In this document: in pieces, positions 3,280 through 63,452 of the stretch | Layout: each line of letters starts with the position of its first letter | Numbering within the stretch: position 1 is the stretch's first letter | Origin: Sphaerolaimus hirsutus | Taxonomy: Eukaryota > Nematoda > Chromadorea > Monhysterida > Sphaerolaimidae | NCBI GenBank assembly: GCA_964036195.1 | Contig: OZ038459.1 | Location: 25,479,206-25,543,205 of the forward strand | Length of the DNA stretch: 64,000 nt | Reading direction: 5' to 3' | The notes under the pieces: generated by a model | What the model was told of the DNA's origin: nothing | Database searches by the model: none | The model's input: the letters and a program-made list of their open reading frames with translations, nothing else | Program-made: the position numbers and the translations under genes

Positions 3280-3478
3280 CCTGGGGGCAGTCCCAAGCCC
3301 TGTAAAGTGTAAAGTAAAGTGTCAAATGTAAAGTCAAATGCAAAGTAAAGCGTCAATCAAAACAAAAAAGAAAAGATTTTATTACTGAACTTTGCATGAC
3401 AATTGACACTTTACTTTGCATTTGACTTTACATTTGACACTTTACTTTACACTTTACAGGGCTTGGGACTGGCACCTG
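3280..3478. mobile_element. Family B element with CCTG duplication
   Basis: Element 3284-3474 starts GGGGCAGTCCCAAGCCCTG and ends CAGGGCTTGGGACTGGCA. Its arms are built from AAAGTGTAAAGTAAAGTGTC repeats. CCTG flanks it at 3280-3283 and 3475-3478. The termini are those of family A but the arm body differs. Confidence 0.85.
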
Positions 3479-4062
3479 ATGACATTCACACAAACATGTG
3501 GCTTGAACAGCAGAAAAGCTTAAATAGCTCACTCTGTCTGAAGTCAAATTAACTTACCGTATTTTTTAGATAACCTCAGGGGGTTTAGTTTGATTGAAGT
3601 TTAGAGGCGGGGAGTTATTCAAGGTGATGTTATGAATTTTTGATCTGGCAGTGTGTTGATCTGGCGCCACTCCCAGACCCTGTAAAATGTCAAATGTTCT
3701 ATTTTTACCAGTGATTTGACATGACATATCATGCTCTGTAGTTTCACTTGTGTTTCATCAAAATTCCATTTGATCTAGGTGTTCAAACCTGAGTGTCTTC
3801 ACAATGCTTGGTTTTCTATTTGGGGGTTTTATTCATGAAAATACAGTAGTCAACTAGAGTGTTTTTCTTGAGTGAAAAACAAGAACTACAAAACTTTCTT
3901 TCCTATATTGCATTTGCATACACGTCTAAATAATATATTGAAATACACTCTCAGGTACAGCATATACTAGTGTTATTGTGAGTGACTGCGGTTAGTTTTT
4001 GTGCAGCTAAAGTGGAATGGCGCCATGGCGTTGGCGCTCATTCGGGTGCAGAGGGCACCGCC
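3479..4062. other. No gene; one A-element remnant
   Basis: A broken A-type arm sits at about 3662-3700 (GCCACTCCCAGACCCTG followed by unrelated AT-rich DNA). The rest has no recognisable feature. Confidence 0.5.
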
Positions 4063-4385
4063 CCAGGGGGCAGTCGCAAGCCCTGTAGAGTGTAAAGTAA
4101 AGTGTCAAATGTAAAGTCAAATGCAAAGTAAAGTGTCAATTAAAACAAAAAAGAAAAGATTTTATTACTGAACTTTGCATGGCAATTGAAAGTTTACTTT
4201 GCACTTGACTTTACATTTGACACTTTACTTTACACTTTACAGGGCTTGGGACTGCCACCAGGGGGCACTCCCAGACCCTGGAAAATGCCCTGCAAAATGG
4301 CAACTCGGTTTTCCATGACTTTTGACACTTTGCATGACATTTGACATTTGACAGGGCTTTTTACAGGGTCTGGAACTGGCACCAG
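4063..4385. mobile_element. Tandem B and A elements sharing CCAG
   Basis: CCAG (4063-4066), B element 4067-4257, CCAG (4258-4261), A element 4262-4381, CCAG (4382-4385). Three identical copies of the target site mean that one element inserted into the duplicated target of the other. This is the clearest evidence that the duplication is four bases. Confidence 0.9.
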
Positions 4386-5821: not shown

Positions 5822-6288
5822 AGAGTTGGGCAACGGGTATCGGGTCCAAAAGCCTTCGGGTCCCGTATCGGTTCCGAAAATTTCACGGGTTTCGGGTTCA
5901 GGTTGTAGAGTCCGGGGGGCAGTCCCAGACCCTGTAAAAAGCCCTGTAAAATGTCAAATGTCATGCAAAGTGTCTAAAGTCATGGAAAATGTCCTGCAAA
6001 ATGGTAACCGAGTTTGACACTTGACCTTTGAAATTTTTACAGGGCTTTTTACAGGGTCTGGGAGTGGCACTTGGGGCCAGTTCTGCACGTGGAGAAGTAC
6101 GAAGTGAAATGGCAATGGCGAAGTGAAATAGGAAAAAAACGAAGTGAAATGGCAAAAGCGAACTGAAATTACTTTTATTTATTTATTTTTTTTACTCCGC
6201 ATTTGCCACTTCACTTCTCACTCCTCCACTTGCGGAACTGGCACCAGGCCAGGTATTTTATCGGGTTCGGGTCGGGTTCCCAACCCTA
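5822..6288. mobile_element. GGGTTCGG-rich element interrupted by A and C elements
   Basis: The left end TAGAGTTGGGCAACGGGTAT and the right end GTCGGGTTCCCAACCCTA are roughly inverted, with GGGTAT/GGGTTC arrays inside. An A element (about 5912-6070) and a C element (about 6071-6249, ending CACTTGCGGAACTGGCA) sit inside it. The termini resemble hAT ends, but no 8-bp duplication is visible. Confidence 0.55.
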
Positions 6289-6542: not shown

Positions 6543-9500
6543 GTTGCAATTAGTGATGGAAAAGCGCCAGTAAAAATGGCGCCATGACGCCATTGAAAAT
6601 AATGGCGCCGGAGAGAAAATGGCGCCAGGCGCTAATGGCGCCACGGCATCATCTGAAAAATTGGCGCCAGGCGCCAAAGGGCGCCAGCAACAATGGCGCC
6701 AACGATAAAAGTCCTTGTTTCAGCAGGTATATGAACAGAGAAAACATCTGTAGAATAGCAGTGTGCTATACCACTTTGAAGCCGTCTACTATACCAGAGA
6801 CACTGCCTCTTATCATGAATATTATCTATACCGTATTACCCCTAATTATCCCCCCCCTTGAATTCACCCCCTCGAATTAACCCCCCCTCCCCTCAAAATG
6901 GGCTGGGGAAATAATACCCCCCCCCCCTCGAAATACCCCCCTCCGGAATGATGTACATAATGTTTGCAATGTACATGATGTATCAATTACTACTTATTTG
7001 CATCACAGCTACACTTACACGCTCATTTGTGTACAGATGTACTTCTATAGCCCCAATATAACCTATTTGCTCACGTTTATTACCGTTTTTGTGTAATAAA
7101 AAGCGTATTCTTAACTATGAATTTCACGAAAATTTCTGACGGAATAAAAAAGTATTTTACATGACACATGACACTTTACAGGTTCTTTTACATGATACAT
7201 GACATTTTACAGGGTCTTTGACACTTTACAGGGTCTTTAACAGGGTCTGAGAGTGCCCCCTGCCAAAATCTTCACAATTTTATATTAGGTATTCTAATGC
7301 ATTTTATGTCTAATGCATTTTGTCTGTTGTGGACATAGATTTGTCATGGTAGAGAGAGTACATCAGACAGCGTTTAACTGGCTATTTCTACAAATACAAA
7401 TCATTTTTAGTTGAATTGTTACTTTTTTATGCCAACTTCATATGAAAACTTTGTGACATACAAATGAAATAAATTAGACTAGGAATTGTTAACAATAGGT
7501 CAGCGGACAAGATGCATTGAGAGTGATATTTCAAATATTTTTTATGATCACTCATTATTACATGTTAGTGTACAGAAAAAGTTTTCACACTTCAGTGTCA
7601 CAAAACTATTCAAAACAATGGCGCCGGGCGCCAAATTGGCGCCAGCAAAAATGGCGCCAAGCGCCAAGGGTAGTGATGTAAAAGCGCCATGGCGCTGGCG
7701 CCTGGCGCTAGCGCCAAACCAAAAAGCGCCATGGCGCTTTTGGCGCTTGGCGCCTTTTTGCCGTGGCGCCATTGGCGCTTGGCGCCGACACCTCCAAAAG
7801 CGCCATGGCGCTTTTGGCGCTCGGCGCTAAAATGCCGTGGCGCCATTGGCGCTTGGCGCTCACAGTTTAAAAAGCGCCAAAAAAGCGCCATACCATCTGT
7901 GTTCGTTTTCGATTGGTGGCATCAAAAATGCCATCAAAATATGAGATGATTGCTTTTTTGTTCCATTCAATTCTTCCATCACCTAACACTTGTGGTTCAC
8001 ACATCCAAATTTCATTGATATAAATATAAATAGCACAACTTCACTTGCTTCACTAAGCTACTGAAACTTTCTGCAATCAGAAAAAAACTACCTACATATA
8101 TAGCATGCTGAATGTACACTTTACAATCTACCTAACTATCATCTCACATTTATTATTCAGACAATCCGTTGAATAACACTCACTGAATAACTCCGTTTGT
8201 TGACCAAGTGATAAAAAATACCCCCCTTGAATAACTCCCCCATCTGGGTATTTGATATGTACATATATCCATCAATGATTGAAATTCCGATGAAAACAAA
8301 TTTTTGCATCGATACCTTGTTTTTGTTGTCGTTGAACTATCAAATACCCGGATTACATGAGTTTAGGGAATGCATTCATAAAATGAATAACGTGCAAGTT
8401 CCGAGGGAAAAAACTCCTCCTAGAATAGCACCCTCTTGATTACCTCCTCAAAAACTTCTGATGAAAACATTACTCCCCTAGGGTCTTATTTGAGGATATA
8501 CAGGGGTGGGCATCTTCAGTTACCGCTGGGAAAATGCGATAGATTGAGCTACGGTTGAGCTATCAGAATGAAATTTTAACACAATGGAGTAGACTCCATA
8601 GGACACCTATTCTGAAGTTTGCAACCCAAACGGCCACATTTTGGGTGAGTTGTGGAACACACGGTTTTTAGTGTAATTTTGTGACTTGGCGTCACCCATA
8701 GGATAAATCGAGGGTGGCATTTGAGGGGGGGGGGCATCGGTCGTTGGTGTCGTCCCATTCTGTCGTACATCGGCCGATTTTGATGCCCTTTGAGTATGTT
8801 GTGGTCGCGCCTACTACCAAATTCTTTTTTTACTCGAATAGTCCCCCAGTCCCGAGATAAGGGGGGTTAAGTCACAAAATTACACTAAAAACTGTGTGTT
8901 CCGCAACTCCTCCAAACTGTGGCCGTTTGGGTTGCAAACTTCAGCATAGGTGTCCTATGGAGTCTACTCTATTGTGTTAAAATTTCATTGTGATAGCTCA
9001 ACTGTAGCTCAAGCTATCGCGTTTTTCCAGCGGTAACTGAAGATGCCCACCCCTGTACTATACGGTACTTGCATTCACTGCGAGTAAATGTTTTGCACAA
9101 ATTTTTAGGCAGCTTCATTCATAAAGTAGAGGAACAGCTTTGTGTATTTAATATCCAGATATTGATGTACATGGCTAATTAAAAATCGACCAAGAAATTT
9201 TTGGCGCTGGCGCTATTGGCGCTTGGCGCTATAGTCCTCTGGCGCCATTGGCGCTTGGCGCTACGGTCTGGAAAAGCGCCATGGCGCTTTTGGCGCTTGG
9301 CGCTAAAATCGTCTGGCGCCATTGGCGCTTGGCGCCGCAATGCGAAAAGCGCCATGGCGCTTTTGGCGCTTGGCGCCAAAACTCTGGCGCTTTTTACATC
9401 ACTAGCCAAGGGCGCCATGGCGCTTTTGGCGCTTGGCGCCAAAACTCTGGCGCTTTTTACATCACTAGCCAAGGGCGCCATGGCGCCATTTGAAATAAGG

Positions 9501-9569
9501 GCGCCAGGCGCCAGATGGCGCCATTAAAGGGCGCGAGCGCCATGGCGCCATTCCATCACTAGTTGCAAT
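6543..9569. mobile_element. 3-kb composite family H (hAT-like) element
   Basis: The left end at 6551 is TAGTGATGGAAAAGCGCCA, the right end at 9561 is ATTCCATCACTA, and GTTGCAAT is exactly duplicated at 6543-6550 and 9562-9569. Eight-base duplications and TAGTG-type ends are hAT hallmarks. GCGCC-rich arrays occupy 6580-6710, 7617-7890 and 9200-9550. Between them lie a polyG/polyC D element (6829 to about 9067), an A-type fragment (7150-7262) and the foldback at 8501-9055. No transposase is seen. Confidence 0.8.
8501..9055. mobile_element. hAT-like element with CAGGGGTGGGCA ends
   Basis: Inverted ends of more than 100 bp begin CAGGGGTGGGCATCTTCAG and finish GAAGATGCCCACCCCTG. The terminus is close to the usual hAT form. 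It interrupts the right end of the surrounding D element (gaggatata / ctatacggta). The flanks are only partly alike (AGGATATA and TACTATAC), so the duplication is imperfect. Confidence 0.65.
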
Positions 9570-20731: not shown

Positions 20732-20883
20732 CCAGGGGGCCCCCCCCACCAGACCCTGTAAAAAGCCCTGTAAAATGTCAAATGTCATGCAAAGTTTCAA
20801 AAGTCATGGAAAATGCCCTTCAACAGTTTGCATGACATTTGACATTTTACAGGGCTGTTTACAGGGTCTGGGATTGGCATCAG
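20732..20883. mobile_element. Family A element, CCAG/TCAG flanks
   Basis: Short copy, 20736-20879, with full ends but a shortened hairpin tip. Confidence 0.8.
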
Positions 20884-21076
20884 GGGTTAAGTGTGCAAGT
20901 GAGAAGTAAAATGTAAAAGTGAAGTAAATTTGTAAGCGAGAATTTATATGGCAAGTAAAAGTCAAAAACGTTTTCAGCGTTTTCCTATCACTTACCATTT
21001 GTTTTAACTTTTTTTTTCTCACTTCTAAATGTTCATTGTTTTTTCTTTCTTCTCCACTTGCGGAATTGGCACCCGA
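20884..21076. mobile_element. Family C element
   Basis: Left arm TTAAGTGTGCAAGTGAGAAG, right arm CTCCACTTGCGGAATTGGCA. The arms are made of GTGAAGTAAA / TTTTTCTCACTTC purine and pyrimidine tracts. It abuts the A element at 20883. Confidence 0.7.
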
Positions 21077-22331
21077 TCAGAGTAAACTTTGTATTATTTT
21101 ACATTTTTTTCAGGGTAAAAAACTTTGTAAACAGTCGCATAAACACCCGTACTCACTATAGAATATTTTTGTGCCAAAATTCAGTTTAAATTTATATTAT
21201 TCAAACTATTCTGCTGCAAACACGATAGATTTTTTCAAATATCACGTTCCATAAATATTAATTATGATCATTCATCCTTATCAAATTTAATAATGTTTTT
21301 TTAAACAGATGGATAATTTGCGCGATTTACGGTTGGATGGCTGCAAAATGATATGTTTATTCCATTCGATTACATTTTATTATACACGAAATTTTCTATA
21401 ACAGTTCAACTTTGCAGCGATGTTGGACAGCTCAGGTTGGCTGAATATCGGTTTTTTCATTGTTTTTTTTTTAAATATATCGACAATATGACTTATCGAT
21501 ATCGATAGTTGATATTTTACATTGAGTGAAATTGTGAATGACCGTATCAGAGTAAATGTTTCCTTCATATCAAGATTGTGTCGATATTTTTTCGACATCT
21601 TTGGACATTTTTTCGACAAATTTCGGCATGGATATCGATGTGAAAAATGTTGATGTAAAAGTGCAATGTATGGAGCTTCTGGCGCTTGGCGCTAAAGCTT
21701 TGACGTTATTTGTTATATAGAGCACCTCATAAGTACTTTATGGATCGATACTCGTTTTTGGATTTTTCATACCTATTTAGTTGATGGATGGCCCCAAACC
21801 GAGTTTTTTATGTTTATTTTGTGTTTCGTTTATATTTAATTATTCACGTTTTTAATTGTTCAATTCGTATAAGTTCTGTGTATAAATATCTACTGTAACC
21901 AAAATATCGCCGTTCTCAAATGTTATTCCTCCATCTGTCATTTCTTTCTAACTTCCATAATCAATATTTCTTCATTTTTTTCCATTCCATTTGAAAAACA
22001 ACAACACAAAAAGTGTGTTCTAGCTTGCAGATGTAAATGCGTAAAAGTACCTCCCCTCACAATACCTTTTCTGGGCAAAATTTCTGAGCAGTTGTTGTCG
22101 AAAATCATATTTTGTAAATGTGTACAATGCTTATGTAGGTATTTTGGTTTCCTCCCAAAAACGTCGCGAATGTCAACTAAGTATTGACCTTGCTAACATT
22201 TTAGCTTTGTAGTCTACAGCTAAAACTGGAGAAAGTCCGCACTGAGACCTCATTTGTGCCCAAAAGTGCACAAAATTAAATGCGATAAAATTAAAACAAA
22301 AAAAATCGAAAAAGAATTGATCAACTAAAAA
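21077..22331. other. Upstream region of the 22.3-26.2 kb gene
   Basis: No repeat family is recognised. A TATAAATA sequence lies at about 21884, some 450 bp before the ATG, and may or may not be a promoter. ATCGATATCG clusters occur near 21490. Nothing else is supported. Confidence 0.35.
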
Positions 22332-25300
22332 ATGTCTAACAGAAGATTCATGCAGAATTTACCACAGCTGAAAAAAGTGTCTGCCAACCCTACACCGCGT
22401 CAGAAAGTCTCTACTGAACACAATGAACCTCCAAAAAAGGCTGCTGACTTGGCAACAGTCCAGAAAAAACCTGCTGACCGTCCAGCAGCCCAAAAGATGT
22501 CTGCTGAGCCGCAAGCACCACAGAAAGTGTTGACTGGACACTCTGAACCCTCAAAGATGTCTGTTGAGCAGCGGGCACCCCAGAAAGTTCCCACTGCACA
22601 TACCGAAGAACCAAAGATGTCTGTTGAACCTCAAGCGCCTCAGAAAGTGTCCACCGGACATCCTGAACCACCAAAGATGTCTTTTGAACCATCAAAACTA
22701 GAAATGTCTGCTGTGCATCAAAAACCAGAAATGTCTACTGTGCAACCAAAACCAGAAATGCCTGCTGGTCATGTATCACCCACACAAATGATGTCTTTTG
22801 AGCAGCCAGCTCCCATACTGATGTCTAGTGTACCAGCACCTTCTGAACAACAGACAGAGATGTCTAATGACCCACCAGGTGTCAATTCTGCAAATGGACA
22901 AGTGACAAGAAAAGTGTGGGTGGTTAGTACAGTTAAAGTGAGAAGTTGAGTGATACTGTAACTGATGACAAGTGACAGGTAAACATGTTGCTGAAAACTA
23001 GAGAAAACTTGTCACTTTTAAGTTAAATTGACAGTTTACTTCCCACTGGAAACTTTACACTTACCACTTTTTTGTCACTTGTACACTTTTGGAATTGGCC
23101 CCAGCAGCAGCAGCCCAGAAATCACCCACATTCTACAAATCCACTGGTGCAATGCAAGAATTGGCTTTTGTCTCAATTACTGTGATCGCCTGCGTAGTTT
23201 TACTGTCGCAAAATCCATTCTATCTGATTGTGACCCTTTTGGCTGCATATTTACTGGCTTTCTATAAATGTAGAGTGTGCAAAGTTTGTGGAAATCATAG
23301 AGGGAGTGAGAAACAAGGTGGGATTTATATGGGGCTGCTTGTATGGATTGTAAAATCAATACCTTGTTTTTTCTAATAGAAAGGCTATTCTTTTGTTGTT
23401 ATCTTCACATGTGAATGTAAAACTACTGGGGACATTCTTCTTTTCATTCACTTGTGTGAATTATTTTTCCCTAAAGGTGCTTTTTTCAAAATGAAATGTC
23501 ACAATTTAAATGGCTGAAACTGACAGTGCTAACAGACCACCACACATCAATAAATCTCTCTGATATCAGTATTTTGAATGCCACATTTGAACCTTTCACT
23601 AAGTTTTTTATTTTCAGGTATTCTGCTGATCATTTATACTTCGGTATTTCTTTTGCTTTGGCATAGTTCCAACAGAATTTCTGTAAGCCATTCAATTTGA
23701 GCTGCCCTTCCATTACGGGAATGCTCTTCTATTAGAAGTAATGGTCCACACACATACGTTCACTACCAGTCAACTGAACCAGTTCAGTGGTCAACTTAAA
23801 AAAAAACTGTCTGGAGCACACTTCAATTGACAGGAATATCATTTTTGGTCTAACTATTTAGTTGACAGTAACAAAACCGTGCTTTCCATTGATCAGATTT
23901 AATTTAAAAGTTATATTTTAAGTTACCGTGTTTCTTCTCATAGAAGAGCGATGTTTTATTTTTTCGTAAACTTTTTTACCTTCCTTTCTACTGGAGGCTG
24001 CCGCTCTATTTTTTTCACCACTTTTTCACAAATTTCTCATCTCAAAATAGCTTTATTTTGAATGAAGCTTAGCAATATTTGAATATCAGAGCATCAATTT
24101 GGGATTGAACGCCTATTTAAATGCTTTACATGTTCTCACCATCAATCTTTGATTCATTTTGTGTTGTGGAACACTGCCAACTAGGGTGCAGAGTTGCAAA
24201 AACGTATTTACGTTTACCCGAAATACCCGGTTATTCGGGTATTTATACTTACGTTTACGTTTACGTTTTCATAAAATACCATTACGTTTTGTTACGTTTT
24301 CCTGGCCGAAATACCCGGGTACCAGAGAAAACGTAAAAAACGTTGTGAGACCCAAAAATTTTTGGCAAAATGTAATTTCCGTCATAAATTTCCGACAACA
24401 TTAAAAATTTTGCGCGCCAGCGCACACTTTTCCTCCACAGAAGCCGTATTTTCAAAATAATATTCAAATTATTCTATAGTTAGACCCCACCTCTGTGCAG
24501 AGTATTACGTATTACTTCCCAAACTCGAATTGTGCCAAATGCTTATAAAAAAAGTCAGCGGATGCTGTTTTTTAGTGGCTTTCGTGGATTGATTTTGAGC
24601 TATTTGAAGATCAAATGTTTTATCAACTCTATGAATCGCCATAATATAAATTTTTTGTGACATAACACTTGGGAAAACGTTGACAGAACGTGAAAAATTG
24701 ATTGAAAAACCGGCGAAAATATAGAAGGGCAGCTTCCAAAAGACGGTGTCTCCATAATAGAAAGTCGGTGAAAAATAGAAGGGCGCCCTTCTATTAGATG
24801 AAACACGGTAATAATTTTTTTACGTTTACGTTTTATTTTACGTTTTCCCAGGTATTTTAAAAATACCTTACGTTTTAGTATTTATACTTTCATTTTGGAA
24901 AAGGTATTTACGTTTACGTTTACGTTTTCCAAAAATACCAGTATTTGACCAACTCTGCTAGGGTGTCAAAAATTTTTTTACGGAAAACGGAAACGGAAAC
25001 GGAAAAAAATTTCAGTGGCCAGAAAACGGAAAAAGGGGCCGGAAAAACGGAAACGGAAAAATGGAATTTGCATAGAAATGAAAAAATTTGCCGAAATTTT
25101 GCAAAAAAAAACGATAAAATTCACCGAAATTTTGCTGAAAACTAATTTGATTTTTTTACTTAATTGTTAATCTGCATGACTGTTTACCAGTTTGGCTGGA
25201 ACAGAAAACAGAAAGTTGAGCCAGAAAATGGTAAAATGAGGCGGAATGCAGAAAATTGAGGCGGAAAACGGAAAAAAGGCGGAAAAACTGGAAATTGAGC

Positions 25301-26165: not shown

Positions 26166-26589
26166 AGTTTACGTATGCACTTTCACTTACCTGCAGCATT
26201 TTATTTCACTTTCAAATGCACACATTTATATACACAAGTACATTTTACATAATTGATGTTTGTATTTATATTTAATCTACCTATGTAAATATTCCTGTAA
26301 TTGGTTGAAGTCCAAACCAGTGTTTAAAATCTTTAATTAGGTACTTATCAATTTTGACGTTGTCTGAAACTGTAACTGCATTTCCCTGTAATATCGTTAC
26401 AAATAAGTTTACACTATTTGATAATATTTTTATTTTGTGAAGATTTTGCAGATTATATTTTATTATATTTTCTCGAAATCGCACAGTTTTCCAATGCTAA
26501 TCACCATTCACCCACCAACATATAGGTAAGCACTTGCAAATCCCCTCGTAAAACGTGTCCCAATCATGTCCGATTCCTCCTGATCATGC
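26166..26589. other. 3' flank of the 22.3-26.2 kb gene
   Basis: AT-rich, with no canonical AATAAA close to the stop. Another acceptor-like TTACCTGCAG at about 26206 could define an alternative last exon of 19 codons. Confidence 0.35.
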
Positions 26590-26599
26590 CCATACCCAC

Positions 26600-26820
26600 C
26601 CAAAAGGACGGCGGTGAACCGTGGGCCGTAGAAAAGGCCGCCTCGTGGCTGTCGCACCAACTGGCCCAAGCTGTTCCCGCAGCTCAGCTCCGCCTTCATG
26701 GACTGCGAGCCAACCAGCGATCTGATCAGAGGCAGGCGCATGCGGCCGTTGAAAGCGCCGATGATAACGCCACTGCGAGATTTAGAGCGCAGAGACCGGT
26801 TTTTGGCAGCACGTTTTGAT
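26600..26820 (-). CDS. GC-rich exon-like block, strand uncertain
   Basis: A GC-rich island in AT-rich DNA, open in at least three frames. The minus frame is favoured because it puts the highest GC (about 80%) at third codon positions and the lowest at second positions; its peptide contains GVIIGAFNGRMRLPLIRSL and GGLFYGPRFTAVLLGG and could end at a GTGGGT or GTATGG donor. Plus frames give LFPQLSSAFMDCEPTSDL or EPWAVEKAASWLSHQLAQA. A TGA upstream means the minus frame needs an acceptor near 26835. No family is recognised. Confidence 0.35.
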
Positions 26821-26880
26821 TTGATGCTGGATCCGTTTTTTTTTTGTGAAAGTTGTCCCGTTGCCAAGACTTCGGTTCAA

Positions 26881-27009
26881 CCTGGTGGCGTTACCATGCC
26901 GTGTAAAATGTTAAATGTAATGGCAAACTTGCTTTTGCCATTTTATAGAGCGTTTTACAAGACTTTTGACTCTTGGCATGACATTTACACGGTCTGGTAG
27001 TGGCGCCTG
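26881..27009. mobile_element. Short family A element with CCTG duplication
   Basis: Element 26885-27005 is flanked by CCTG on both sides. On the minus strand it reads GCGCCACTACC...CCAG, so it has the form of a GC-AG intron. See findings for the reading frame that continues across it. Confidence 0.8.
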
Positions 27010-27828: not shown

Positions 27829-28024
27829 GCTGGGGGCTCTCCAAGACCCTGAAAAAAGCCCTGTAAAATGTCAAATGTCATGCAAAGTGTCAAAAGTCAT
27901 GGAAAATGCCCTGCAAAATGGCAACTTGGTTGCCATTTTGCAGGGCATTTTCCATGACTTTTGACACTTTGCATGACATTTGACATTTTACAGGGCTTTT
28001 TTAACGGTCTGGGAGTGGCACCTG
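27829..28024. mobile_element. Family A element, near-perfect hairpin
   Basis: Element 27833-28020 has two arms of about 90 bp with only a few mismatches and a loop of a few bases at GGCAACTTGGTTGCC. It is the best preserved A copy. Flanks are GCTG and CCTG. Confidence 0.9.
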
Positions 28025-28457
28025 GTGTGCGTGTAGGGCCTTTGGCGCCAGTGCCAAAAATTATGTCGCTTTTTCATGGCTATCCTTCAAAATTCTTCTC
28101 AAACGGCGCATGAATTAATTATTGTGCATTATGATGGGTCACACTGTAAAAAATTTATTCGTGTAGGGATCCATGAAAGCAAGTGGGTGACTATTTATTC
28201 ACTGTTAATGCATGTGTAAAACCATTTTTAGGCGCCAATAGATTGTCAATTATTTATTCATGTTTACTCTTTGTGATGTGTCGTAGAAATTTTCTTTGAT
28301 GTCATATTTCCGTATCAGGAGCAGTTTGCACGCATTTTTCTGTAGTATTTTTTATTATTTTAGGTCTTCAAAATAAAAAAATATAAATAATATTTATGTA
28401 TGTTATCTGTTACAAAGAGGAATAAATTCGGATCAATTCTAATTTAAAATATCACGA
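28025..28457. other. No gene seen
   Basis: AT-rich DNA without a supported feature. Confidence 0.5.
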
Positions 28458-28639
28458 CATGGTGCCACTCCCAGACCCTGAAAAAAACTCTGTAAAATGT
28501 CAAATGTCATGCAAAGTGTCAAAAGTTTGTCAAAAGTCAAGGGTTTGCCATTTTGCAAGGCATCTTTCATGACTTTTGACACTTTGCATGACATTTGACA
28601 TTTTGCAGGCCTTTTTACAGGATCTGGGAGTGCCGCATG
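28458..28639. mobile_element. Family A element with CATG duplication
   Basis: Element 28462-28635 (GTGCCACTCCCAGACC...GATCTGGGAGTGCCG) is flanked by CATG exactly on both sides. Confidence 0.9.
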
Positions 28640-28925
28640 ATTCCCATGCAAACATGCAATAACCTATACCAAATATCAAATGTCCAACGAAATATTTATC
28701 CAACAGAAATCACCATCCGACATTACCATAATTCTCCAATTATACCCCCAGGCTCTTGATATATCTTATATCTCTTAAGCGTTTCAAAGTTTCCATAATT
28801 TTCAAATAGAAAAAGCCTGGATATGAAGTTATTTTTGTATTTATTTGACGGTTTTTTAGGGTCAACTCAAATTAAAAAGTAAATCAGTTTTATGATGAAA
28901 AGGAGTTTTTATGATGAAATAATCA

Positions 28926-29866
28926 GTAGCTAATAGTGATGGAAAAGCGCCAGAAAAAAGGGCGCCAGGCGCCAATGGCGCCATGGCGCCATTCAGAAAG
29001 TGGGCGCCAAGCGCCAAGGGCGCCACAGAAAAAGGGCGCCAGGCGCCAAGGGCGCCATGGCGCCATTCGGAAAGCGGGCGCCAGGCGCCAAGGGCGCCAC
29101 GGAAAGAGGGCGCCAAGCGCAAAGGGCGCCATGGCGCCATTTGAAAAATAGGGCGCCAGGCACCAAGGGCGCCAGGATAAATAAGTGCATACAACACCCT
29201 GCATGTGCTAAAAGTGTTTCTACAGCACCCTAGCACATGCATTCACTACTTAATTTGCGTTCTCCAGGGTGTAATGAACAAAGACAACACTAGCAACAAA
29301 AAAATTCGAGTAAAATGCACATGACAATTCAAACACAATGGATATTGTCATTTGACAACAATCCATTCACTTCAAATTGACTTTTCCAATCAATGTTTCC
29401 TCGAAATGGACAAAAAAAAACGGAATTGCAACGATTTGAATATGTTAATTTATGTTTTGCAAGTTCAACGTTCCATCATTCTCGTCTTCTGATCTGTCAG
29501 ACACATCTGATGAACCGTTGCACAAAAGATTTATACCCACTCACACCACTACGTCCATTTTTCTGGCGAATTCAGATCATCCATGAATGCATTTTTCATT
29601 TTTTTTCCATTTATACAGCACTCACCTTGAAACCCTGCTGGCGCCTTTTTGGCGCCCTTTAAGAGCAGGGCGCCAGGCGCCAAGGGCGCCACGGAAAAAG
29701 GGCGCCAAGCGCCAAGGGCGCCATGGCGCCTTTCAGAATGTGGGCGCCAGGCGCCAAGGGCGCCACAGAAAAAGGGCGCCAAGCGGCAATGGCGCCATGG
29801 CGCGGCGCCCTTTGGCGCCCTCAAATGGCGCCAGCGCCATGGCGCCATTCCATCACTAGTAGCTAA
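28926..29866. mobile_element. Family H (hAT-like) element, 925 bp
   Basis: Element 28934-29858 has ends TAGTGATGGAAAAGCGCCA and GCGCCATTCCATCACTA. GTAGCTAA is duplicated exactly at 28926-28933 and 29859-29866. Arrays of AGGGCGCCA at both ends enclose about 450 bp of unrelated AT-rich DNA (29180-29635). Frames such as ALGAWRP are translations of the array, not proteins. Confidence 0.9.
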
Positions 29867-32528: not shown

Positions 32529-32745
32529 TTGGGGTGCTGGTGCCACTCCCAGACCCTGTAAAAAGTACTGTAAAATGTAAAATGTCATGCAAAGTGTCAA
32601 AAGTCATGCAAAGTGTCAAAAGTCACGTAAAATGCCCTGCAAAATGGCAACTCGGTTTTCTTTTAACTTTTAATTTCGAAATTACTTTAAATATTTACTT
32701 CGCAATTATGTTTTTTTTACTTCCCCACTTGCGGAATTGGCACCT
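32529..32745. mobile_element. A/C hybrid element
   Basis: The left half is A-type (GTGCCACTCCCAGACCCTG) and the right end is C-type (CCCACTTGCGGAATTGGCA). Flanks are GCTG and CCTG. It may be a recombinant between families. Confidence 0.65.
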
Positions 32746-33397: not shown

Positions 33398-33581
33398 GGG
33401 GGCACTCCCCGACCCTGTAAAAAGCCCTGTAAAATGTCAAATGTCATGCAAAGTGTCAAAAGTCATGGATGATGACCTGCAAAATGGCAACTCGGTTGCC
33501 ATTTTGCAGGGCATTTTGCATGACTTTTGACACTTTGCATGACATTTGACATTTTCCAGGGTGTGGGACTGGCACCAGTAT
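33398..33581. mobile_element. Family A element, TCAG/CCAG flanks
   Basis: GGGGCACTCCCCGACCCTG to GGTGTGGGACTGGCA with well preserved arms. Confidence 0.85.
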
Positions 33582-39049: not shown

Positions 39050-39270
39050 TCAGATCTTAAAGTGCCCTGTAAAATGTCCTGTGTCATGCAAAGTGTCTCA
39101 AGTCATGCAAAATGTCAAATATCATGAAAAGCTTCATGAAAGTGTGTAATGGCCCGCCAAAATCACAAAATAAAAATATTTTGTCATTTTACATGACTTT
39201 TGACACTTGCATGATATTTGACATTCAAAAGTTTACAGGGCATTTTACAGGCTTTGTAGTGCCACTCAGA
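39050..39270. mobile_element. Diverged A-type element
   Basis: GGCTACTCTCAGATCTTAAA to CAGGCTTTGTAGTGCCACT. CAGA flanks both sides. Confidence 0.6.
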
Positions 39271-39357
39271 TGAATTCTGCATGTGTACAAGTGACTAGAA
39301 AAGTGACAAGTGATAGTCAAATCATCTGTGGTCGGTCAAGTGACTTATTACGCGTGC

Positions 39358-46616: not shown

Positions 46617-46813
46617 CCAGGGGGCTCTCCCAGACCATGTAAAAAAACCCTGTAAAATGTCAAATGTCATGCAAAGTGTCAAAAGTCATGGAAAATGCCC
46701 TGCAAAATGGCAACTGGGTTGTCATTTTGCAGGGCATTTTCCACGACTTTTGACAGTTTACATGACATTTGACATTTTACAGGGCTTTTTACAGAATCTG
46801 GGATTGGCACCAG
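46617..46813. mobile_element. Family A element with CCAG duplication
   Basis: Element 46621-46809 is flanked exactly by CCAG. Arms are near-complete. Confidence 0.9.
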
Positions 46814-56520: not shown

Positions 56521-57126
56521 CAGCTGGGCAGTTTTTCCAGATATTAAAGTGCACAAATAAAATACAAAAAATTGGATTGCCCGGGTTAACGTGTCGGGCG
56601 AATTTAATTACTCACCTGTACATTCATATTCGATGAATAAATGACACATGTTTTCGAATAATTCGAGCCCTTTGGTTCCTCGGTTATTGCTTCCCATTCC
56701 CAGATGCTTCCAATTTTTTCTTATTTTTACATAAAATTACACTTTTTTTAAAACAATTTTCCAGTTTGTTTAGAAAAATTACATTTTGTTAAGCAAATGT
56801 ACACTTTATTTCAAAAAATAGCTTTTTATGAAGACAAATTCGCACTTTATGAAGTACACTTTATATTTATTTGCACATTTAATCAATTCGTGTCACACCC
56901 AAATTTATATTAATTAATGTCTTATCATTTTTTCAGATGACGCAGTTCACTGAAAAGATATAAATTTGCTTTTGTCTGTACGACGTAACAGAATTTATCA
57001 TTTTGTCACATAAAACACACTTAATAATGTCCCAATTCCGTACTTTGTCAAGTGTCAGGAATGTCTGTTTAATTACTGAAAAAATCCCTGCAACTTGTCA
57101 CTTGCAACTTTTTTGTCACTTGAAAG
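56521..57126. other. No firm gene
   Basis: Mostly AT-rich. The last 60 bases (CACTTGCAACTTTTTTGTCACTTG) resemble a C-element right arm and would serve as the pyrimidine tract of the next exon. Confidence 0.35.
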
Positions 57127-57351
57127 GACAACCAGGTTCCGCGGGACAAAAAAACCCAGAAGAATCGGCACCCAGTGAATCGGAAATCATATCATATTCC
57201 ATTTTCCAGTGGCAGTTTTACATCTTCTACATATACACATCATATCTAAACATTCGCAAAGTAATGTAAAACAAGTATGTATACATTCTAGGTATTTCAG
57301 TACAACAAGCCCACGTACGATGTATCAATTTTCTTCCAAGTACCCACTTAA
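57127..57351 (+). CDS. Candidate exons with a 40-bp intron
   Basis: Exon 57127-57260 reads QPGSAGQKNPEESAPSESE then FYIFYIYTSYLNIRK and ends CGCAAA|GTAATG. The intron 57261-57300 ends TATTTCAG, and the next exon continues in phase 0 as YNKPTYDVSIFFQVPT and stop. Downstream of the same acceptor, two other frames are also open: one encodes KCYAQCCHRLCALC and ends TGA at 57463, the other stays open to a GGCAG|GTACCG donor at about 57559. The true reading is unresolved and the product is unknown. Confidence 0.35.
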
Positions 57352-59251: not shown

Positions 59252-59425
59252 CCTGTGGGCACTCCCAGACCCTGTAAAATGCCCTGTAAAATGTCAAATC
59301 TCATGCAAAGTGTCAAAGTCATGGAAAAACCGAGTGCCATTTTGCAGGGCATTTTCCATGACTTTTGACACTTTTGACATTTTACATTTTACAGGGCTTT
59401 TTACAGGGTCTGGGAGTGGCACCTG
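59252..59425. mobile_element. Family A element with CCTG duplication
   Basis: Element 59256-59421 (TGGGCACTCCCAGACC...GGGAGTGGCA) is flanked exactly by CCTG. Confidence 0.9.
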
Positions 59426-60846: not shown

Positions 60847-63452
60847 TGTGTCCACCCCAAAACCCCCAAAACTAAATCAAAACCCGCAAAAGCAGCCGCG
60901 CCACCGGCGCCCGTCAATCGGCCGTCAACTGCGCGCCGCTGCCAAACGAGCGTCGCTGCACCTGCCGCTGTTCGGTCAACAGCGCGACAAGAGTCCGGCG
61001 CACCAGTGCCGCTGCATCCAGTGCAGCAGTCAGTGCAGCGGGCCCAGACGCGCCGCCGGCTGGCCCAATTCGTGCAGTTTTAGTGCGCTGCATTTGAGCG
61101 CGAATGAGGTGGGTTGTGGGGGGGGGGGGCTGGGCTAGGGGGGGGGGGTAAAGGAGCCTGTGGGCACTCCCAGACCCTGTAAAAAGCCCTGTAAAATGTC
61201 TAATGTCATGCAAATTTAAAGAATAATTCTCACCACGACAGAAAAAAACGTGGATTCGGAGTGGGGAACTTTTATCCCCGCACTGGAAAAAATGTAAGGG
61301 GTTGGCAGCCCGCCAAAATTCTAAGTTTGGAGGGTGTGTTCCAGTGGTGCCTCGCAGTACCCTGAGCGCTTCTTCCGAACTATAATTTGCCACTAAATGT
61401 CACTTTCTCCCAAGCAAACCAAAAATAAAAAAGTTTAAACGTACGTTTGCCATTTTACCGGGCATTTTACATTACATTAAACTAGTGATGGAAAAAGCGC
61501 CAGGGTTTTGGCGCCAAGCGCCAAAAGCGCCATGGCGCTTTTCAGACCCCGGCGCCAAGCGCCAATGGCGCCAGAGCAAAATGGCGCCAAGCGCCAAAAG
61601 CGCCATGGCGCTTTTCTGAACCTCAGCGCCAAGCGCCAATGGCGCCAGGGGGTGACGGCGCCAAGCGCCAATGGCGCCAGCGCCAAAAAATGTATCTGCA
61701 ATTTGATGGTAGAAACAACCGTGCATAGCTGTGAGTGGCGTACCGCTGAGGTAGTAAATAGTAGTCTGTTTAACTTTTGCCAGTTCAAACAAGCACTACA
61801 TCTTTTATAAATTGTTTAAATACCCAGAGATATATTTTGTTCGTCAAACATCATGACTTCATTTGTTAGTCAAACCTCTTATTTAACGGACATATAAAGC
61901 CATAAACAATTGAAAATTGTGATAATTCACATGAATAATGATTATTTGTGAGGTGAACAACTATTTTAAAAGTTTGAAAATCAGCAATTCTTTATGAAAG
62001 TAGGTGCAAAAATTTTCAAAAATCGCTCCTGATCTGGTCGATTTTGGGGTTGGGGTGGGTTTCGAGGGATAGTAGCCTAGAATTTTGCCTCAGGATAGAT
62101 TGCTTGAGAATTCAGGAGTAACATCCCCCTACCCACCCTCCCAACCCCCGCCATACTCAAACTTGATTTAGACTGCAAGAAAGAATTGGAAGCAAAGCAT
62201 AAAATGCCATTTTCTAAAAATCAGCTTTTGGGGTGACCTATCAATGTTTATAAGTTCAAGCTTAAAATGAAAAAGGTGGGTACAACACGAGTACGTTTTG
62301 AAGCGAACAAAAACACTTGTTCCACATTCAAATATGAGGACATCTTAAGTAAAATTAAACACATTTTATATCGAATAAATGCAGAGGTGTTAAAGTCTAC
62401 CCCAATATTAATCAATTTATTAAGTCTTTCTCAAAATTGATCAACTGGACTGCCAATTTCACTGTATTATATTATTTTTATATTATCATGGTTGGCGCTT
62501 TTTTGGCGCCATTTTTAATGCTGGCGCCAGGCGCCAATAGCGCCACCAGAAAATGGCGCCAAGCGCCAAAAGCGCCATGGCGCTTTCTCAGACCTCAGCG
62601 CCAAGCGCCAATGGCGCCATTGCGTTTTAGCGCCAAGCGCCAAAAGCGCCATGGCGCTTTTTGCTTTGGCGCTAGCGCCAGGCGCCAGCGCCATGGCGCT
62701 TTTCCATCACTACATTAAACACTTTGCATGACATTTGACATTTTACAGGGCTGTTTACAGGGTCTGGGAGTGGCATCAGAAGGGCAGCGGCAGTCACCAG
62801 GGCAGTAAGCACCTACCGATGCATTTGATTTTTTACAGGGGATTTTACAGTGTCTGGGATTGCCCCAAGGTGTGATGCAGAAAGTCAAAGTTTAGTAATG
62901 AAATCTTTTATTTGACTTGACATTTCACATGATATTTGATCCTTTACAAATTGAGGGTGCGGGGCACCCGGCAGTAAAATGCCCTGCTTAATGTCAAGCA
63001 AAGTGTCAAAAGTTATGTAAAATTTCACAAAAAAATGTCAAGCATCAAGTAGAAAATTGAATTGAATTTCACATTGACCGGGAATTTTAAAGGGTGCAGT
63101 GTTACCGCCAGGTATTTACCACCCCAAAAACCTCCACACAAAGTACCCTTTCACAACCAGCTACATTAACCCCCCCCCCTCTCAGCCCGGCTTCAATCCC
63201 TCCATGGCCAGCTCGGGCTCGCAGCACGCGTTCGGCACGCCCGGCACCAACGCGTCCACCGGTTTCTTCCGCCACCACATGCCCAAGGGACTCAACAGCA
63301 TGTTCGGCGGCAGCGAGAAGAGAAAGTCCACCGGTGGGCGGGGCTTAGCCGACTTCGACGCTGATTGGACCGATGGACCCAGGGGTATGGGAGATGGCAG
63401 TTTGAAGAAGAATAGGGCTGCGAGGAGGGTTGGCGAGGGGTTTATGGAGAAG
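60847..63452 (+). CDS. GC3-rich multi-exon gene, partial
   Basis: Exon 60847-61107 (donor GAG|GTGGGT) and exon 63186-63452 (acceptor CCCCCCCTCTCAG, donor AAG|GTGCGT) join in phase 0. The second exon could instead begin at 63115. Both exons are far more GC-rich than their surroundings, with about 76% and over 90% GC at third positions, which is good coding evidence. Peptides: RPSIGRQLRAAAKRASLHLP and CRCIQCSSQCSG in the first; GFFRHHMPKGLNSMFGG and GLADFDADWTDGPRGMG in the second. Low-complexity, probably cytoplasmic or nuclear; I do not recognise the family. A further acceptor (TTCAATTCGCCCCAG) at 63989 suggests the next exon runs off the window. The first exon's own acceptor is weak, and a rival frame there is discussed in findings. 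Confidence 0.55.
61157..62779. mobile_element. Family A element split by family H, in the intron
   Basis: A arms at 61161 onward and to 62775 (flanks CCTG/TCAG) enclose other DNA and an H element. Confidence 0.75.
61475..62720. mobile_element. Family H (hAT-like) element, 1230 bp
   Basis: Element 61483-62712, TAGTGATGGAAAAAGCGCC to GCGCTTTTCCATCACTA, with CATTAAAC duplicated exactly at 61475-61482 and 62713-62720. Arrays of AAAAGCGCCATGGCGCTTTT occupy 61490-61690 and 62490-62705. The 800 bp between them is unrelated AT-rich DNA with no supported gene. Confidence 0.9.
62790..63114. mobile_element. A-type remnants before the last exon
   Basis: A right arm (TTACAGTGTCTGGGATTGCCCC) ends at 62872, and a CGGGGC-type variant (62960-63113) ends GGGTGCAGTGTTACCGCCAG. 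This last CAG could be an alternative acceptor, since the frame is open from it into the exon. Confidence 0.55.

Follow-up and report, generated by a model that had tools for sequence, protein, structure and literature searches.

The window analysed here, a stretch of 64,000 nucleotides (64 kb) of contig OZ038459.1 of the nematode Sphaerolaimus hirsutus, carries on its plus strand a putative gene whose reading frame is interrupted by an inverted-repeat element. The element with its two arms, the target duplication at its borders, the reading frames on either side and the hairpin predicted for it are all present in the DNA as given below, and the exons and introns named along with them are putative features proposed from the same sequence:

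22332-22878, plus strand: putative exon 1, 182 codons and 1 base, with repeats of about 10 residues of the KMSxEPQAPQ and KVSTGHPEPP types
22876-22878, no strand assigned: target duplication, first CAG copy, which is also the end of exon 1; CWG is usual for the family
22879-23101, no strand assigned: C-type MITE-like element of 223 bp, with the ends GTGTCAATTC and GAATTGGCCC
22879-22918, plus strand: left terminal repeat, opening with the proposed donor GT
23062-23101, minus strand: right terminal repeat, identical to the left one at 28 of 40 positions ungapped and in 31 of 41 columns gapped
23102-23104, no strand assigned: target duplication, second CAG copy, containing the AG proposed as acceptor
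22879-23104, plus strand: proposed intron 1, 226 nt, phase 1, composed of the element and one target copy
22938-23034, plus strand: rival intron, phase 0, donor at the 98.6 and acceptor at the 86.7 percentile
23105-23317, plus strand: putative exon 2, with two hydrophobic segments and the motif CRVCKVCGNH; alternative end at the TAG of 23374-23376
23318-23617, plus strand: possible intron 2, GTGGGA...TATTTTCAG, each splice site at the 99.2 percentile, joining in frame to a hydrophobic end
23549-23554, plus strand: AATAAA, candidate poly(A) signal if exon 2 is the end of the gene (TAG 23374)
23618-23700, plus strand: possible exon 3, with the stop TGA at 23698-23700, for a product of 280 residues

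A preliminary description of this sequence had placed an inverted-repeat element at 22879-23100, between two copies of CCAG inside an open reading frame, and had noted a GT at the start of the element and an AG at the end of the second copy. Most of this stands: CCAG is literally present at 22875-22878 and 23101-23104, GTGTCA begins at 22879, the second copy closes with the CAG of 23102-23104, and between the arms (22878-22912 and 23068-23102) complementarity is 77%. The end at 23100 and the duplication of 4 bp are the parts to be revised, since the ends of the family favour an element of 22879-23101 with a 3-bp CAG duplication: the fourth flanking base is unequal in 2 of the 9 pairs with identical flanks (27833-28021 and 33399-33575) and all 9 elements end in C, so that a 4-bp CCAG duplication is disfavoured, with the caveat that these nine pairs were chosen by the 3-bp register, itself set from the family ends. 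With the element removed, the empty target site would read CACCAGCAG, the insertion point being the CAG of CACCAG. A hAT identity of the element, which would imply an 8-bp duplication and CAGG ends, was considered and dropped, as the octamers that precede 22876 and follow 23104 mismatch by eye. A separate element of 769 bp at 24189-24957, with the ends CAGAGTTG and CAACTCTG, has identical 8-bp flanks, CTAGGGTG, at 24181-24188 and 24958-24965 (24181-24965 in all), a duplication such as a hAT-type insertion would have.

Folded as RNA, 22879-23104 reaches -72.9 kcal/mol (z -4.48, with none of 200 shuffles as stable), the two ends being paired in a predicted, nearly end-to-end hairpin, in contrast to the RNA of candidate intron 2 (folded from 23320), which is unremarkable (z 1.09); such a hairpin is a consequence of the inverted repeats and, alone, no evidence for splicing. 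The similarity of the two arms gives no insertion date, because among the 13 elements compared below 7 exceed the focal one (28/40) and 5 fall below it, some of these 5 owing their lower values to shifted ends or to ends of different type.

Related elements are abundant in the window, and 12 of them were compared with the focal one. Their ends are of an A-type (GTGCCACTCCCAGACCCTGTAAAA or GGGGCACTCCC...) or a C-type (GTGCCAATTCCGCAAGTGG or GGGCCA..., also GTGCCAATTCC...), and the two types are tied together by the element at 32540-32743, which has one end of each with CTG on both sides. None of the 12 has a strand assigned:

1144-1330: family member, A-type, flanks CTG/CTG, GT-AG borders on the minus strand
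1977-2153: family member, A-type, flanks GTG/ATG in the register used, GT-AG absent
3284-3475: family member, A-type, flanks CTG/CTG, arms identical at 38 of 40 positions, GT-AG borders on the minus strand
4262-4382: family member, A-type, flanks CAG/CAG, GT-AG absent on either strand
6074-6244: family member, C-type at both ends, flanks TTG/CAG, GT-AG absent
20884-21072: probable family member, right end C-type, left end poor, flanks CAG/CCG, GT-AG absent
27833-28021: family member, A-type, flanks CTG/CTG with the fourth flanking base unequal, GT-AG borders on the minus strand
28462-28636: family member, A-type, flanks ATG/ATG, GT-AG absent
32540-32743: family member, left end A-type, right end C-type, flanks CTG/CTG, GT-AG borders on the minus strand
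33399-33575: family member, A-type, flanks CAG/CAG with the fourth flanking base unequal, GT-AG absent
46621-46810: family member, A-type, flanks CAG/CAG, GT-AG absent
59256-59422: family member, A-type, flanks CTG/CTG, GT-AG borders on the minus strand

The flanks of the family point to a CWG target. Of the left A-type ends 17 of 30 are preceded, and of the right ones 21 of 31 followed, by CAG or CTG, against a trinucleotide background of 2.6% in the window, and among the 25 element pairs that the end models yielded the 3-bp flanks are identical in 9 (CAG or CTG in 8, ATG in 1) and unequal in 16, several of the latter being poor or doubtful pairings that were still counted. Shuffled pairs have a mean of 2.8 identical flanks, and at least 9 are reached in a fraction of 0.0001 of 10,000 shuffles. 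Several further arrangements were seen in the window. Within 20740-21072 two elements, one A-type and one C-type, are placed back to back, seemingly with one common CAG (20881-20883), and in the A-type cluster of 3284-4383 the element ending at 4258 and that starting at 4262 seemingly share the CAG of 4259-4261. A C-type end piece at 39260-39312 (88% identity with the left arm of the focal element over 33 bases) directly follows an A-type-like right end (by eye), and no partner end was recognised nearby. Degenerate C-like ends at 57029-57172 (CCCAATTCCG... and GAATCGGCACCCAG, by eye) lie within a 101-codon open frame (56964-57266) and possibly represent an older element in coding sequence; matching flanks were looked for there and not found.

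These features invite comparison with NuwaI of the PHIS superfamily which, in the available text of its description (PMC4482050, Mob DNA 2015), is defined by CWG duplications, usually has ends starting with GGG and was found in animals only, and which has terminal repeats of 12-61 bp and autonomous copies with a DDE transposase and a Myb/SANT protein. As far as that text allows, the window family resembles NuwaI in its CWG target duplications and perhaps, in part, in its ends and repeats (about 35-40 compared here): in 8 of the 13 elements, among them the focal one, one end starts with GGG and the other with GTG, and the remaining 5 show other combinations. It may also depart from the account of NuwaI given there in that its copies measure 121-223 bp and that none of the 30 window ORFs scanned against Pfam proved to be a transposase, three sub-threshold matches being the only ones obtained. 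The end patterns of the family, compared with the collections genome_contigs and viral_contigs, gave a sole match of 21 bases in a Lachnospiraceae contig (L001), which was set aside as chance, and plasmid records gave none. The rest of the window holds GGCGCC-like repeated units at 7483-9524, 28865-29866 and 61475-61815, where several frames are open on both strands (with GALGAWRP-type translations), and two 122-codon frames that overlap on opposite strands at 26511-26997 and have no Pfam match; searches for Rfam families and tRNAs found none.

Removal of 22879-23104 joins CCA CCA G to CA GCA GCA with the frame kept, as the preliminary description had maintained, and gives an uninterrupted frame of 273 codons. 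The keeping of the frame is weak evidence for the exact borders, because 36 in-frame GT-AG pairs that bridge the stops (donors from 22800 to 22947, acceptors up to 23159) keep it as well. Nor do a GT and an AG at the borders prove an intron, an argument that was rejected because such borders occur on one strand in 6 of the 13 elements and on both strands in none (6 of 26 strand cases); apart from the focal element, the 5 that have them lie outside any known frame, and exact GT-AG borders are to be expected in about a quarter of the strand cases of this family. On scores from generic metazoan frequencies, with percentiles over all GT or AG sites in the window, the exact donor CAG|GTGTCA reaches -0.21 (88th percentile) and the exact acceptor, the AG of 23102-23104, -0.58 (77th percentile), and the GTs at 22914, 22923, 22938 and 22979 within the element score above the former and the AG at 23034 above the latter. 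Behind the exact acceptor, further AGs in the same phase stand at 23107, 23110 and 23113.

The weakness of the exact splice sites, together with the stops that the frame of exon 1 meets within the element (22947, 22959, 22980, 22992 and 23019), speaks for an insertion that breaks the gene, in which case transcripts would continue into the element and the protein would end at the TGA of 22947 without its membrane part, or the copy would be a dying allele. The downstream frame is nevertheless still open and hydrophobic, an argument whose weight depends on the uncertain age of the insertion, and such a breakage is considered unlikely, if the least unlikely of the alternatives. An intron lying within the element, with AAA|GTGAGA (22938) as donor and GACAG (23034) or else CCCAG (23118) as acceptor, and with both arms or the left one translated as new protein, comes next in probability and is improbable as well. 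Both 22938 and 23034 outscore the exact borders, both arms are open in frame, and G at first codon positions is coding-like in the left arm (0.42, in 19 codons only); against this, the right arm in frame has just 0.17, the alternative acceptor at 23118 stands at the 46th percentile, arms of 20 and 24 codons are by estimate frequently open by chance, and 44 element-coded residues (20 with 23118) would be added inside a repeat unit.

The DNA of exon 1 has a self-identity of 0.43, 0.49 and 0.41 at lags of 30, 60 and 90 bases, a value that does not exceed 0.32 at lags other than multiples of 3. In its best-kept part (22470-22700), the proposed frame has a pN/pS of 0.52 at the 60-base lag, the alternative frames having 0.92 and 0.97; with all of exon 1 included, no clear difference between the frames is left (0.86, 0.81 and 0.98 at lag 60; 0.85, 0.84 and 0.88 at lag 30), so that the synonymous signal is confined to the best-kept part. 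An excess of third-position changes was not significant either in that part (binomial P 0.06 at lag 30 and 0.18 at lag 60) or in the whole of exon 1 (0.42 and 0.65, respectively). To the right of the junction the joined frame has 89 open codons (P 0.016 with frame and position taken at random), a stretch as hydrophobic as the strongest one of exon 2 occurs in 2 of 90 other ORF ends (0.022), and the frequency of G at first codon positions is 0.30 in exon 2 versus 0.14 and 0.19 in its other frames, with 0.27 in exon 1. The first 60 bases past the junction weakly match exon 1, with a score of 25 that 3.9% of random 60-mers attain (null percentiles: 24 for the 95th, 28 for the 99th), and the same comparison gives 22 for exon 3, 20 and 16 for the first and last 60 bases of the element and 18 for the rival exon start. 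By eye, the CAGAAA part of this match lies in codon frame, and the joined protein EMSNDPP-AAAAQKSP resembles units of exon 1 such as RPAAQKMSAEPQAPQKV; the insertion may thus have split a repeat unit. Against exon 3 stand a first-position G of just 0.11 and the position of the first AATAAA past 23600, at 28372, with an ATTAAA at 24400.

The least probable alternative, that of two chance open frames beside an ordinary intergenic MITE, could draw on the joined product and its C-terminal part having no relative in the protein collection searched, on neither ORF flanking the element matching Pfam, on the exon-2 frame having no match among solved structures and on the uncut length of 206 codons (plus-strand frame 22329-22946, open until the TGA of 22947) being reached in 6 of 100 simulated windows, and it is disfavoured by the in-frame repeat structure of exon 1, by the pN/pS of its best-kept part and by the 273 codons that continue once the element is exactly removed, a length found in 0 of the same 100 windows (longest 228), which were first-order Markov sequences of 64 kb to which no excision was applied.

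The explanation that we favour is that the element is spliced out exactly, as a 226-nt phase-1 intron, and this estimate, based on the anatomy of the locus, gives it about an even chance of being right. A non-autonomous NuwaI-like element (CWG-target, PIF/Harbinger-type) would have entered the CAG of CACCAG in an exon of a putative repeat-rich membrane-protein gene, where the staggered cut of the transposase would have doubled the CAG. The GTG terminus beside the first CAG would then form the donor CAG|GTG and the second copy of CAG the acceptor, the spliceosome would remove the element together with one target copy, and the former coding sequence would be regained; the paired terminal repeats would draw both splice sites together in the RNA. 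The anatomy in this way supports the earlier suggestion that a transposon and its target duplication may be removed at exact GT-AG borders, with one splice site supplied by each, and we infer from it that the gene is probably real and expressed and that the exact borders may be the ones used.

Splicing of DNA transposons is familiar from maize, where Ds and dSpm elements are spliced out of RNA as introns near the element ends, using several cryptic sites and rarely restoring the exact frame; the focal element is similarly proposed to be spliced near its ends, and would differ in restoring the frame exactly. Short inverted-repeat elements are an established origin of introners, the element giving one splice site and the target copy the other (PMC9860276, PNAS 2022; PMC7789003), and the focal case is like those in the available part of the PNAS paper in being a short non-autonomous inverted-repeat element with a target duplication in a reading frame, removable without effect on the frame, and in having element borders that coincide, by sequence alone, with GT-AG. 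It is unlike them in being one candidate known from DNA sequence, without a set of similar introns, and the duplications named for introners in that part of the paper are of 4 and 8 bp, with no CWG target, as against the 3-bp CAG favoured here. Recently gained fungal introns contain remains of Kolobok-H, PIF/Harbinger, TcMar-Fot1 and LTR elements (PMC8476143, Mol Biol Evol 2021), which places a related transposon superfamily within gained introns; the text of that paper, as available, states superfamilies only, without a match of element to splice site or a CWG target, and in the corresponding part of PMC4902974 PIF/Harbinger and gained introns are not linked. The introner elements of Amoebophrya, as described in the accessible sections of PMC7789003 (BMC Biol 2021), share with the focal element the inverted repeats at the intron ends, the direct repeats across the borders (3-5 nt in Amoebophrya) and the predicted hairpin, and differ in their mostly non-canonical borders and in having no family-specific inverted repeat, in contrast to the GT-AG borders and recognisable family end seen here.

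The preliminary description had gone further and regarded the family as a live or recent source of introns in this genome, which the window does not bear out. Among 18 elements whose empty-site frames were restored (a test that left out those at 32540 and 20884), the focal one gave 273 codons, followed by 167 (6074-6244, minus strand), 144 and 111; it is the only one above 167 codons, and there is therefore no sign of a series of introns in the window, where matches to the focal element elsewhere are pieces of at most 48 bases. That a CWG-target, NuwaI-like family might act as a ready-made maker of introns, yielding a frame-neutral intron in any exon whenever orientation and target fit, is put forward as a doubtful, tentative generalisation. 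The introner type and the presence of PIF/Harbinger remains in gained introns are already known, and the CWG target as a reason would be the new element; in the open-licence literature, as judged by titles and the starts of abstracts, a link between a CWG target and intron gain was not found, and novelty is not claimed firmly.

In summary, if the element is spliced as proposed, the whole origin of an intron would be legible at one place, with target, duplication, donor and acceptor side by side. The favoured exon context of splice sites is CAG|G, and the generalisation, if true, would link the target choice of a transposase directly to this proto-splice site and to intron gain. The overlap of the CWG target with the CAG|G context may thereby offer a simple, testable explanation of why intron making is confined to certain transposon families.
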